Assembly: GCA_003017855.1 (NCBI GenBank)
Contig: PYER01000003.1
Span: 1 to 64,000 of the forward strand
From: a filamentous cyanobacterium CCT1
GTDB lineage: Bacteria > Cyanobacteriota > Cyanobacteriia > Phormidesmidales > Phormidesmidaceae
Reading direction: 5' to 3'
Length of the DNA: 64,000 bases
A model generated the notes under the pieces. That model saw only the letters and a list, made by a program, of their open reading frames with translations, ran no database searches and had not been told where the DNA came from. The translations under genes were made by a program, and so were the position numbers. Positions 8,778-27,097 of the stretch are shown here, in pieces; position 1 is the stretch's first letter; each line of letters opens with the position of its first letter.

Positions 8778-9230
8778 ATGACCCCAGCTCGGCCTACCTC
8801 AGCGATTTCTCTATACGAAGCTGACTATCTCAGTTGGCTGGACGCCACTGTCGCCGCCCTCAAGCGCCAGGACTATGGCGCGATCGACTGGGAAAATGTG
8901 ATCGAAGAAATTGAAGACATGGGCCAACGGGAGCGACAAAGTCTAAAGAGCAACCTGGTGATTCTGCTTTTACATTTGCTGAAATGGCAGTTTCAGTCAA
9001 ATAAACGAAGCAACAGCTGGAAGGCGAGTATCGTTGAGCATCGCCAGCGCCTGGAAGATAGCCTGGAGGCATCGCCTAGCCTGAAGCCTTACTTAGAAAC
9101 CATATTCACCAAAGCCTACGAAAACGCTGTAGAACGGGCGTCGGCGGAAACTGGTTTGTCTGAAGCTGCCTTCCCTAAAGATTGCCCCTATACCGTTGGT
9201 CAGATTATGTCCAAGGGATTCTTGCCCTAA
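8778..9230 (+). CDS. DUF29 family protein
   Basis: Starting at the ATG after a HIP1 site gives 150 residues; the track's earlier start (8682) would translate through the stem-loop. The DUF29 pattern is clear: LYEADYLSWLDATVAALK, then IDWENVIEEIEDMG, a helix LLHLLKWQFQ, SWKASIVEHRQRLED, and a C-terminal YTVGQIMSKGFLP. DUF29 is a helical family greatly expanded in cyanobacteria and of unknown function. A second member lies at 25219, next to a Uma2 gene. It is monocistronic here. Confidence 0.85.
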   Translation: MTPARPTSAISLYEADYLSWLDATVAALKRQDYGAIDWENVIEEIEDMGQRERQSLKSNLVILLLHLLKWQFQSNKRSNSWKASIVEHRQRLEDSLEASPSLKPYLETIFTKAYENAVERASAETGLSEAAFPKDCPYTVGQIMSKGFLP

Positions 9231-9306
9231 TCGTAAATTAGGGTGGAAAGTTTCGATCCAAGGCCGATCAGAGGTTACCTCACGCACCTACTCACCCACT
9301 CCCCGA

Positions 9307-20538: not shown

Positions 20539-21465
20539 TCAAGCTGATATTTCTTGGTGTGGCCCAAGCAAAAACTGTAGAGCGACAATGTTAGACCCAT
20601 CTGACTCTGTGTGGTATTTGTCTGCCCACGTACGCAGCATTTCATCAAGCTCCTGCAGAGCTTCGTCTTTCCGATCTTCCTGAATTTCTAAGGTTTCTAT
20701 GCCTCGCATAACACCACTTTCACCATCAATCCATGAGTACATCCAACGAAATGAGCGAGTTAGATCTTGAACCATTGTTTGCATACGAGCTTGCCGCCCC
20801 TTGGGAGAATACTCTTTCTTAAGTAGCAGATAAGCAGAGATTTCCTTGGTGATTTTAATCTCTTGCATTGTTTCTGAAGCTAGCAAACGATATTTTGCAT
20901 GCTCAGCAAGTGCTTCGCTAAAATCGGTTCGTTTTGACTCGTGCAGTAACGATTGTGCTTTCTCATGCAAGTCTCTTATTAAATCCTCAACATCACATTC
21001 TCGCAGCACGAGGCAGCTAGGTATATTTTTCGGAAAACTAGCCTCTAAAATGAGTCTTTCGCTTTCGCTTAAATTGAAAAGCCGGGTCATTGGTTCCCCA
21101 TTCTTCAGTGAATATTTCTCAAGCCAAAGGTAAGAAAAGCCAATTAGGTATGAAGGCTCTACACTTCCTAATAAACAAAGTGAGCCTCCATTTTCCAAAA
21201 GGGAATCAAATTCACCAACAATTTCTTTGACCCTGCGAGGCTCTACATGATGTAGAAAACCCGTACGTCTTAAGTTGTTTCCCTCTTCCAAATAGGTTAG
21301 ATAAACTGCGAATTTTGCGGCGACCGACACAGCATCAATGACCTTTCCATACCGGTGTCCAAAAGTTTTGATTAAATTGATTACAAGTAAAAGAATAAAG
21401 AAATCAATGTCGCTAACGTTCAAAGCTTTGGCAAGCTTATCGTGATTAACCCTGATCTGCACCAT
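20539..21465 (-). CDS. hypothetical protein convergent with the sigma factor
   Basis: A 308-residue, mainly helical protein that I do not recognise. A hydrophobic segment near residues 20-35 (DIDFFILLLVINLIKTF) may be buried or a membrane helix. Later parts are charged helices (LIRDLHEKAQSLLHESKR, ALQELDEMLRTWADKY). It is AT-rich like the cluster genes and ends only 33 bp from the sigma factor stop. Its own promoter would lie in the 21466-22230 gap. It could be part of the same acquired segment. Confidence 0.65.
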   Translation of the reverse strand: MVQIRVNHDKLAKALNVSDIDFFILLLVINLIKTFGHRYGKVIDAVSVAAKFAVYLTYLEEGNNLRRTGFLHHVEPRRVKEIVGEFDSLLENGGSLCLLGSVEPSYLIGFSYLWLEKYSLKNGEPMTRLFNLSESERLILEASFPKNIPSCLVLRECDVEDLIRDLHEKAQSLLHESKRTDFSEALAEHAKYRLLASETMQEIKITKEISAYLLLKKEYSPKGRQARMQTMVQDLTRSFRWMYSWIDGESGVMRGIETLEIQEDRKDEALQELDEMLRTWADKYHTESDGSNIVALQFLLGPHQEISA

Positions 21466-23359: not shown

Positions 23360-24583
23360 CTAGGCTGTACGCAGGGCCACGATGGGGTCGAGTTTGGCGG
23401 CTTGACGAGCCGGAAACACGCCAAAGAAAAGACCAATGCCGCCAGAGATGCTAACGGCAAGAACAATGGCCCCGATTGAAATCCCGGCCTCGAAGGGGCT
23501 AAGCACTCCGATCAGCAGAATGCCGCTCACCCCCAAAGCCGTGCCAATTACCCCGCCCGCCACCGAGAGAATGATGGCCTCAATCAAAAACTGACCCAGA
23601 ATATCGCTCTGGGATGCGCCGATCGCCTTCCGCAGCCCAATCTCCTGGGTGCGCTCACGCACCGACACCAGCATGATGTTCATAATGCCGATGCCGCCGA
23701 CAAAGAGGGAAATACCGGCGATCGCAGCCAGCATAATCGTCAGCGCCCCGGTAATGGTGTTGGCGATGGTCAGCAGCGTGTCCTGGCTGCTGATGTAGAA
23801 GTCGTCTTCGTCGCGAATGTTGTGGCGCAGGCGCAGCAGGTTGGTAATTTGAAACTCGGCGGTGGCCATGCTCTCGCGATCGCGGGCCGACACCGTAATA
23901 AACGAAACCTCGATCCCATAGGGCGATCGCTCGCCCCCGGCCAGGCGGCTTTCTTTGGTCGTCAGCGGCACCATCACCGCGTCGTCGTAGTCGAGGCCTA
24001 GGTTAGAGCCCTTTGGCTCCAGTACCCCTACCACATCAAAGGTGACGCCCCCCACGCGAATTTGCTGGCCCAGGACAGGCTGGTTGTCAAACAGGCGCTC
24101 TCGCAGGGTTTCGCCAATCACGGCAACCTGGGCACTGCGGGTCATATCCAGCTCGCTGACAAACCGTCCCCTGGCCACCTCAAAACTGCGCACCGTTAGA
24201 AAGTCAGGGGTAATGCCCACCACGTTGACGTTGGCGTTGCGGTTGCGAAAGGTGACGAGCTGGCGACCGCTCGACTCTGCGGCCACCGCGGCCACTGAGG
24301 GCACCTGCTGGGCGATCGCCTCCGCATCGGCCAGCACCAGCGTGCGCGGAATTTCCAAAGAGCCCAGCTGGCGGGTCTCTTGACTGCCCGGCACCACAAA
24401 CAGCACGTTTGGCCCCAGGGTTTCGAGCTGGGCATTGACAAACCGCTGCGCCCCCTCGCCCAGGCCCACCATCGTAATCACCGAGGCATTGCCAATAATG
24501 ATGCCCAGCATGGTTAAGGTGCTGCGCAGCCGGTTAGCAGCCAGGGTTTTCGTCGCCATCGACAGGCTTTCTTGCAGATTCAT
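23360..24583 (-). CDS. MacB/FtsX-type ABC transporter permease
   Basis: A 407-residue permease. The N-terminal helix lies in a conserved motif (AANRLRSTLTMLGIIIG), followed by the MacB periplasmic core domain (about 50-240). Three C-terminal helices form the FtsX domain with GGIGIMNIMLVSVRERTQEIGLRKAIGA, the typical mechanotransmission segment. No ATPase domain is fused. Its partner adaptor is encoded at 25757-27097 on the same strand, but two unrelated genes lie between. Such systems move small molecules, peptides or glycolipids across the envelope. The start is 13 bp after the Uma2 stop. Confidence 0.92.
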   Translation of the reverse strand: MNLQESLSMATKTLAANRLRSTLTMLGIIIGNASVITMVGLGEGAQRFVNAQLETLGPNVLFVVPGSQETRQLGSLEIPRTLVLADAEAIAQQVPSVAAVAAESSGRQLVTFRNRNANVNVVGITPDFLTVRSFEVARGRFVSELDMTRSAQVAVIGETLRERLFDNQPVLGQQIRVGGVTFDVVGVLEPKGSNLGLDYDDAVMVPLTTKESRLAGGERSPYGIEVSFITVSARDRESMATAEFQITNLLRLRHNIRDEDDFYISSQDTLLTIANTITGALTIMLAAIAGISLFVGGIGIMNIMLVSVRERTQEIGLRKAIGASQSDILGQFLIEAIILSVAGGVIGTALGVSGILLIGVLSPFEAGISIGAIVLAVSISGGIGLFFGVFPARQAAKLDPIVALRTA

Positions 24584-24596
24584 AAGAAGTATCTTG

Positions 24597-25214
24597 TCAG
24601 GAATTGGATCGCAGGGCAGTCAAAAATTGAATTTGGGCCTCAACAGCCTCTTCAAGCTGAGTACAGCGTTCCAGCAGGGCAATATCTAAATTTGGCAACC
24701 AGCTGCTACGGTCGGCCACCTGATAGTCAGGGTTGCCATCAGCAGCGGGATTGAGGTGATAGATCACCAGATGATTGCTCTGCCAAAACCAAACCTCTGC
24801 CACATTAAACCGTCGATACTTCTCCAGCTTTTCCAGCCCACCACTCGTAAAAACTACTTCAATAGCTAGGTCAGGATAAGGTTTATCAATTTCAAAATAA
24901 TAGGATTCATCTGGATCAAAGGATGCTCCCTTCTCCTCTGCTTCGCAGGTAGCATTACCTGACGGAAAGAATCGAATGCCTAACTCAAAACAATAGGCTT
25001 CGATCAAAATAGCGATTAGCTTTTTCACTCGCTCGTGAGATTTGCCAGTGGTCGTCAATTCAATGGCGCCATCCAGGTAGGTAATTTTGAGGCCAGGGGT
25101 CTGGGCCGCCCAGCTTTGCAGGTTCTTGAAGTGGTCCCATGGATAGCGCCCAGGCAGGGTAAGGGCTTGCTCTACAGACGAGGGCTGAATTGGTAAGGAG
25201 ACTTGAGTCGTCAT
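24597..25214 (-). CDS. Uma2-family (DUF820) putative restriction-fold endonuclease
   Basis: AGGAGG precedes the ATG at 25214 by 9 nt, so I trim the track start; 205 residues remain. The DUF820/Uma2 signature is present: ELTTTGKSHERVKKLIAIL and PYPDLAIEVVFTSGGLEKLEKYRRFNVAEVWFW, giving a plausible PD-(D/E)xK core (Asp in PDLAIEV, Glu, Lys in EKLEKY). The C-terminal half adds the usual strand-helix elements. Uma2 proteins are numerous in cyanobacteria and their role is unknown, with nuclease activity inferred from the fold. It follows the DUF29 gene by 4 bp. Confidence 0.88.
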   Translation of the reverse strand: MTTQVSLPIQPSSVEQALTLPGRYPWDHFKNLQSWAAQTPGLKITYLDGAIELTTTGKSHERVKKLIAILIEAYCFELGIRFFPSGNATCEAEEKGASFDPDESYYFEIDKPYPDLAIEVVFTSGGLEKLEKYRRFNVAEVWFWQSNHLVIYHLNPAADGNPDYQVADRSSWLPNLDIALLERCTQLEEAVEAQIQFLTALRSNS

Positions 25215-25218
25215 CGCA

Positions 25219-25722
25219 TCATTCCTCCTGTAATGAAGCACCTGCCAGGGGCAGCCAACCTTTTTCTAGGGCCTGCTCTAGGCTAAAGCAAGGCTCTTCA
25301 GGAATAAGATTTGGCGCGATGCCGCTAGCAATCAAGACATTATCTCGGGCGTCCTGATATTCAGTCTGAAAATTTTCCAGCAGATAAGGTTTCAGTCTGG
25401 GGCTATCCTTCAAAAGCCGACGAATTTCCTTACGAAAGTTGTTGATTTCTACCGTCCAACCCCGCAAGCACGGCTGACGCTCTGCATCCCAGTACTTAAT
25501 CTTGAGCAGGTGTTCGCAGAGGCGAGCTAGATAGCTTAAAACAGCTCGCTTATCACTTCTGCCCAAACTTTCAATTTCCTCAATTAGATTGTCTAGATCA
25601 AGATTGTCAAATCGGCGATTTTTTAGCAGGGCGGCGGTGGTCTCTATCCACAGTAAAAAATCTGTGTCGTACAGAGACGGGGCGTTTACCTGGGTTGTAG
25701 CATCACTGGTCTTAAGGGTCAT
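25219..25722 (-). CDS. DUF29 family protein
   Basis: The internal ATG (MTLKTSDATTQVNAPSLYDT) gives 167 residues; the track start overlaps the adaptor gene in another frame. DUF29 features are LYDTDFLLWIETTAALLKNRRF, NLDLDNLIEEIESLGRSDK, a helix ARLCEHLLKIKYW, and a final FSLEQALEKGWLP. It shares the fold pattern of the 8778 protein, with the GW(L)P ending. It lies 4 bp upstream of the Uma2 gene, and the pair sits between the adaptor and permease genes of a MacAB-like exporter. Confidence 0.85.
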   Translation of the reverse strand: MTLKTSDATTQVNAPSLYDTDFLLWIETTAALLKNRRFDNLDLDNLIEEIESLGRSDKRAVLSYLARLCEHLLKIKYWDAERQPCLRGWTVEINNFRKEIRRLLKDSPRLKPYLLENFQTEYQDARDNVLIASGIAPNLIPEEPCFSLEQALEKGWLPLAGASLQEE

Positions 25723-25756
25723 AGTGGGTCCAGGATAGCGGGCCGGTACAGCAATT

Positions 25757-27097
25757 TTAGCGATCTTGACGAACGGTAATGTTTTCGAGCGATTTGCCGG
25801 GAGGCAGGTCAACAAAGACGCGATCGCCCGCCTCGACGCCGCTGATAATTTGAATCTGGTCGCCCACCTGCGGCCCCAGGGTAACGGGCTGAAACACAAC
25901 TTCGCGGTTGTCGCCGGGCACCAGCACCCCTGTTTCGCCCGCCTGGGTCACCACCGCCACCGTGGGCACCACCAGGGCATCGGCCAGCTGATCGCCAATA
26001 AAGGCCACGTTGACATTCATATTCGATCGCAGAATGTCTTTGCCGTCGAGCAGCTCAATGCGCACCTGAAATAGGGTGACATTTTGCCGCTCGATCGCCT
26101 CCGGGGCCACCAGCTTGACCCGGCCCGCAAAGGTCTGTTCAGGGAACGCGTCGGCGACAATCTCGACCCGCTGCCCCGGCTCGATCAGGCTAATGTCGGC
26201 CTCGGGCACCTCCGCCAGCACCTCTAGATCCTCCGCCAGGGCCACGATCGCCGTAGATGTCGCCGACGACAGCTCCGAGGCCGAGGTGGTTGGGGTCACA
26301 AACGCCCCAACGGTCGCAAACTTCTGGGTGATCGTGCCGCCAAAGGGGGCGCGGATGAAGGATTCACTCTGCCGCACCTGGGCCGCTTCGAGCTGGGCGC
26401 GGGCCTGGGCCAGGCGGGCCTCGGCCTGGGCAATCGCCTCTTGCCGTGGCCCGCTGCGCAGGTCGTCCACTCGTCGCCGCGATTCGGTGACGCGGGCCTG
26501 GGCCTGCTCCAGAGCGGCCTGGGCGCTACGCTGCTCGCGTTGGGCGGTATCCAGGTCGGTGGCGGCTACTGCCCCACGCTCGTAGAGCTGCTGGCGACGC
26601 GCCAGCTCGCTGGCAGCTAGATCGACACGAGCCTGGGCATCGCGGACCTGAGCCCGGTTGGCCTCAACGGTGGCTTCAGCCTGGGCAATTTCGTCGGAGC
26701 GGCTGCCCCGGCGTAGCTCAGCTAGGGCGGCTTCGGCTTCGGCCACCGCCGCCTGGTTTTGATCGACCTGAGCAGCGGTGTCGCGGCTGCGCATGCGGGC
26801 GATTAGCTGGCCGGACTCGACGCGATCGCCCTGCTCGACGTATAGCTCTTCTAAAACCCCGGCATTCTCGGGACTGAGGTTAACGGTTTGCACTGGCCTG
26901 ACGGTACCGCTGGCCGACACCCGCACCGTCAGCGGCTCGATCGCCGCCTGGGTCGTAAATTCTGCTACGTCGTAGGCGTTTTGGCGGCTGCGCCAGAGGC
27001 CAAAGCCCACGGCCCCAGCCACTAGCGTAGCGGCCGCCAGCCCCGCCAGCAGCCAGACCAGCGGACGACGTACCTTACCAATTAGAGGAACCTGCAT
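25757..27097 (-). CDS. HlyD/MacA-type efflux periplasmic adaptor
   Basis: A 446-residue membrane-fusion protein. One N-terminal membrane helix (VWLLAGLAAATLVAGAVGFGLW) anchors it. A first biotinyl-lipoyl half (GVLEELYVEQGDRVESGQLIARM) is followed by a long coiled-coil hairpin (about 115-240, rich in Ala, Glu, Gln, Arg), then the second lipoyl half (SFIRAPFGGTITQKFATVGAFV) and beta-barrel/membrane-proximal domains. It would link an inner-membrane permease with an outer-membrane channel. The cognate permease is likely the 23360 gene, although DUF29 and Uma2 genes intervene. Confidence 0.92.
   Translation of the reverse strand: MQVPLIGKVRRPLVWLLAGLAAATLVAGAVGFGLWRSRQNAYDVAEFTTQAAIEPLTVRVSASGTVRPVQTVNLSPENAGVLEELYVEQGDRVESGQLIARMRSRDTAAQVDQNQAAVAEAEAALAELRRGSRSDEIAQAEATVEANRAQVRDAQARVDLAASELARRQQLYERGAVAATDLDTAQREQRSAQAALEQAQARVTESRRRVDDLRSGPRQEAIAQAEARLAQARAQLEAAQVRQSESFIRAPFGGTITQKFATVGAFVTPTTSASELSSATSTAIVALAEDLEVLAEVPEADISLIEPGQRVEIVADAFPEQTFAGRVKLVAPEAIERQNVTLFQVRIELLDGKDILRSNMNVNVAFIGDQLADALVVPTVAVVTQAGETGVLVPGDNREVVFQPVTLGPQVGDQIQIISGVEAGDRVFVDLPPGKSLENITVRQDR

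Follow-up and report, generated by a model that had tools for sequence, protein, structure and literature searches.

The HgdBC cluster of Anabaena contains no ATPase gene, and an ATPase from outside the cluster has been proposed for it (PMC6161253; PMC8277102). In 2005 the Uma2 (COG4636) genes of Cyanobacteria were described as a proliferating family that moves horizontally, and they were proposed to be selfish (PMC551604); the family has also been listed as a likely solo toxin (PMC2701414). In the 64,000-nucleotide stretch of DNA analysed here, which is referred to as the window, a MacB-like exporter and a Uma2 gene stand together in one short run of genes.

Four genes on the minus strand of the window follow each other in the order adaptor, DUF29, Uma2, permease, and comparison of the open reading frames with the sequence gave gaps of 34, 4 and 13 bp, so that the order and spacing given in the first-pass annotation are exact to the base. 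The first gene (25757..27097) encodes a periplasmic adaptor of 446 amino acids, a MacA/DevB-like membrane fusion protein that matched HlyD_D23 (1.8e-18) and HlyD_3 in Pfam as well as the family models RND_mfp (2e-51), DevB (1.8e-27) and MacA (3.7e-26). It is followed by a DUF29 gene (25219..25722, 167 amino acids), a 4-bp junction (25215..25218), a gene for a putative PD-(D/E)XK nuclease of the Uma2 family (24597..25214, 205 amino acids) and a gene for a MacB/DevC-like permease (23360..24583, 407 amino acids) with matches to MacB_PCD (2.9e-52) and FtsX (1.4e-17). An HlyD/MacA-type adaptor and a permease with the MacB periplasmic core and FtsX domain, as expected of a MacAB/DevBCA exporter, are therefore present, whereas the fusion of a nucleotide-binding domain to the permease, which characterizes MacB proper, was not found. 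In the NCBIfam alignment the permease covers only residues 254-645 of the 648 of MacB, indicating that no nucleotide-binding domain is present and that the ATPase must be supplied as a separate protein. Exporters of this kind operate together with an outer membrane channel of the TolC type, and a TolC-like open reading frame was seen at a separate locus (L213:1263-2822). The ATG start of Uma2 lies shortly downstream of an AGGAGG ribosome-binding site located within the 3' end of DUF29, no promoter-like site was found inside the four-gene run, and co-transcription of the four genes is plausible. Elsewhere in the window, a gene for the heterocyst regulator HetR (20539-21465, minus strand), which marks the organism as a cyanobacterium, is much AT-richer than the average of the window, with a GC content of 0.415 compared to 0.556, and a second DUF29 copy (8796-9236, plus strand) is probably a pseudogene because two stop codons interrupt the matched stretch.

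The first-pass annotation had pointed out that no ATPase gene accompanies the permease and had suggested that DUF29 and Uma2 take its place. When the whole genome was searched with the ABC_tran profile, no ABC ATPase gene was detected within the window; the single match on the contig (67576-68037) lies beyond its end and, being just 30% identical to the cognate type, was rejected as the missing ATPase. DUF29 and Uma2 were likewise rejected as substitute ATPases, as no ABC profile matched at the locus and no P-loop was recognized by eye. Outside the Cyanobacteria, the plain order adaptor-ATPase-permease was found in 46 of 80 loci around the best permease matches. Cyanobacterial loci have the order adaptor-permease-ATPase (L075, L076, L078, L082 and, from Nostocales, L222 and L223), adaptor and permease without a nearby ATPase, or a lone permease. 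In the cyanobacterial relatives the ATPase is thus found downstream of the permease or unlinked to it, and not between adaptor and permease, so that the two middle genes do not occupy its position. An ancestral order adaptor-ATPase-permease, as the annotation had envisaged, does exist outside the Cyanobacteria, but the present locus did not descend from it.

Of the 25 genomes of the genus, 23 carry the orthologous ATPase gene away from the permease, its product sharing about 70% identity with the ATPase of L076, and in all seven genomes inspected it is flanked by unrelated genes. The suggestion that the ATPase is located elsewhere is consequently borne out for the genus but not for the present genome, a draft of 546 contigs, in which the search for an orphan ATPase did not recover the cognate type; nor was it found in G018, also a draft, with more than 500 contigs. 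The closest match in the present genome, C124:12843-13541, shares 57% identity with the ATPase of the genus and belongs to a second pump type, because its orthologues in relatives are found near another permease that has only about 30% identity to the one here. A second MacB-like pump seems to be interrupted by the end of a contig, with its ATPase part on one side and its permease on the other (end of G000:C124 and start of G000:C537). The gene downstream of the relatives' ATPase has no match in the present genome, and an ABC exporter gene neighbouring the ATPase in G008 matches two paralogues there. When the whole ATPase locus of G024 was compared with the present genome at the DNA level, only one segment was found, and this segment is not linked to the ATPase in G007 either. 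Absence from two fragmented drafts could reflect a real loss or an assembly gap, and if the loss were real, the pump would need another ATPase, for example one of the C124 type. That no orthologue was recovered from the present draft or from G018 might also suggest that adaptor and permease are a decaying, non-functional remnant of a pump that lost its ATPase. However, the reading frames of both genes are intact, dN/dS ratios are low (0.03-0.12 for the permease and 0.05-0.13 for the adaptor) and the ATPase is widespread in the genus, and this reading is very improbable.

The DUF29 protein matches the profile PF01724 over the full domain (1-138 of 138, 1.9e-48) and is one of 16 DUF29 matches in this genome. 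The single solved relative of DUF29, 3fcn, is an alpha-helical protein of unknown function, and the one PHROGs phage family matched by DUF29 is also of unknown function. The Uma2 protein matches PF05685 (1.7e-15), and its residues D102, K111 and E119 are invariant in alignment A1, so that both the family profile and the conserved acidic and lysine residues are found in this copy; a sequence search of the PDB gave no match for it. A match to the PADLOC candidate PDC-S17 (7.3e-68, 226 bits) was discarded as a sign of defence at this locus, since four background Uma2 genes obtain higher scores (250-258 bits) and the model therefore marks the Uma2 subfamily generally. In base composition the two middle genes differ from their neighbours, as their GC contents are 0.47 and 0.49 compared to about 0.60-0.66 for the exporter genes (0.66 and 0.61 individually), and 0.48 and 0.49 at third codon positions compared to 0.74 and 0.75. 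The copies at this site in relatives are likewise lower in GC than the exporter genes. Intact copies gave dN/dS ratios of 0.09-0.16 for DUF29 and 0.07-0.16 for Uma2 when only unsaturated dS values were used, showing that they are maintained by purifying selection and consequently that they have a useful or self-serving activity. For the DUF29 gene of G017, which is far more diverged than the genes next to it, dS is saturated, and this gene has possibly been replaced by a related copy.

The permease was searched for in 40 genomes, 24 of which are other members of the same genus, and its surroundings were extracted. Seventeen genomes, including the present one, share the locus and form one clade in the permease tree (support 0.98); in 16 the permease is preceded at a short distance by the adaptor, which in G014 lies 20 kb upstream. 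What stands between the two genes varies greatly. Both DUF29 and Uma2 are intact in the present genome only, DUF29 alone is found in three genomes (G024, G010, G017) and Uma2 alone in another three (G007, G004, G022), only remnants are left in seven (G003, G008, G011, G012, G018, G019, G021), and two show a clean junction of 36 bp (G009) or 89 bp (G013) with nothing recognisable inside. The gap in G014 is occupied by a phage-tail-like cluster of about 20 kb (L210/L211, G014:C7:101600-121300) that encodes domains of the phage tail sheath, baseplate J and base V types; it is a contractile-tail-like insertion. In G003 the remnant consists of 106 bp from the start of the DUF29 stretch fused to 50 bp from the end of that of Uma2, and in G007 both ends of DUF29 are kept ahead of an intact Uma2, from which it follows that both genes were present at this site in an ancestor and were then deleted piecemeal. 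The site copies are directly seen to be orthologous, as among paralogues those of DUF29 (G024, G010 and G017, with remnants in G007 and G003) and those of Uma2 (G007, G004, G022 and G001, with remnants in several others) each form one clade with an SH-aLRT of 99. Identities among site copies are 64-90% for DUF29 and 68-88% for Uma2, compared to at most 59% and 44%, respectively, with other genes. On the permease tree at least 7 losses of DUF29 and 6 of Uma2 are required, a minimum that assumes a single gain of each gene, as is supported by the monophyly of the site copies in the gene trees.

These losses bear on the proposal, already made in the first-pass annotation, that DUF29 and Uma2 are linked to export. 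If one or both served the exporter in regulation, coupling or assembly, they would be kept in the operon for that reason, and the tight spacing, the ribosome-binding site inside the preceding gene, the purifying selection on intact copies and a linkage of Uma2 to the permease that predates the subclade would all be in line with such a role. Nevertheless, both genes were lost independently many times from genomes in which adaptor and permease remained conserved at about 85-97%, in none of the other families examined did a DUF29 or Uma2 gene separate the adaptor from the permease, and the lower GC content sets the two genes apart, so that a service to the exporter is very improbable.

A different possibility is that DUF29 and Uma2 belong together, for example as a nuclease and its partner, and were inserted jointly as a two-gene module. 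Among the stronger matches listed for 24 genomes, a DUF29 and a Uma2 gene are no more than 1 kb apart eight times where 0.5 would be expected, although two of these eight pairs are the site discussed here and several others come from one genome. Pairs were noted in the relatives G006, G009, G014 and G032, and part of the pairs occupy different sites and have a different orientation. On the other hand, each gene occurs without the other at this very site, including Uma2 in G001, no further pair was present among the matches listed for the present genome, and the excess of pairs may reflect a shared tolerance for passenger-rich regions. Insertion as a unit is accordingly judged unlikely. The more specific idea that the two work together in a small cyanobacterial module of selfish or defensive character that settles between the genes of household operons, of which the present site would keep both members intact, is likewise unlikely.

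Gene order in the remainder of the genus gives an indication of how the arrangement came about. The deeper branches G002, G016, G006 and G020 have a lone permease and encode the adaptor at another place; in G006 the adaptor is divergent from a gfo oxidoreductase gene, the same neighbour that it has in the window. In the basal genomes G002, G006, G016 and G023 (L306-L311) the gene closely following the adaptor is that of a LysR-type regulator and not a permease. G001, which is sister to the 17 genomes (support 0.998), has Uma2 directly ahead of a lone permease, and Uma2 must therefore have adjoined the permease before G001 split off. Probably, the order adaptor-DUF29-Uma2-permease was established by the arrival of the adaptor upstream of the other genes; alternatively, the adaptor may have left this position later in the G001 lineage. 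The earlier alternative, with the ATPase elsewhere and the middle genes as an insertion, was broadly right, but a simple insertion into an intact adaptor-permease operon is probably not what happened. Since the order was established the trend has been the loss of the middle genes, at the extreme down to the 36-bp junction between adaptor and permease.

The explanation that we favour, with a probability of about 85%, is that the locus encodes an exporter pair working with an unlinked ATPase and that DUF29 and Uma2 are old passengers that were repeatedly deleted. A tripartite ABC exporter of the MacAB/DevBCA type has three inner-membrane/periplasmic parts, of which adaptor and permease would be two; they would assemble with the third, an ATPase made from an unlinked gene. 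DUF29 and the putative Uma2 nuclease would be unrelated to the exporter, would have arrived no later than the linkage of the adaptor gene to the permease in the subclade's ancestor, and would ride on the exporter transcript, being deleted again and again with adaptor and permease retained. They may be selfish or niche-specific. Such a history makes the locus a well-resolved case in which the passenger genes of an operon were lost independently many times and the host operon stayed intact, and it warns that tight gene spacing alone is no guide to function.

Compared with described systems, the exporter itself is of a known type, an ordinary one of the drug/lipid class, and the genes in its middle are probably passengers. 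In relation to E. coli MacAB, the permease aligns to the C-terminal portion of MacB and the adaptor matches the MacA model, but the permease carries no fused nucleotide-binding domain. DevBCA, HgdBC and other MacB-like exporters of Anabaena PCC 7120 likewise consist of a separate adaptor, an unfused permease and an ATPase, and in cyanobacterial MacB-like pumps generally the ATPase often cannot be found beside the permease. No DUF29 or Uma2 gene separating adaptor from permease has been described in these Anabaena exporters, in contrast to the present locus. With the putative nucleases of Uma2/COG4636 the present copy shares the Pfam match and the conserved acidic residues, whereas in contrast to the proliferating members of that family it is fixed at one site in the subclade and vertically inherited. 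The DUF29 copy resembles its family in matching the full domain and in having many paralogues per genome, and it differs in being placed within an exporter operon.
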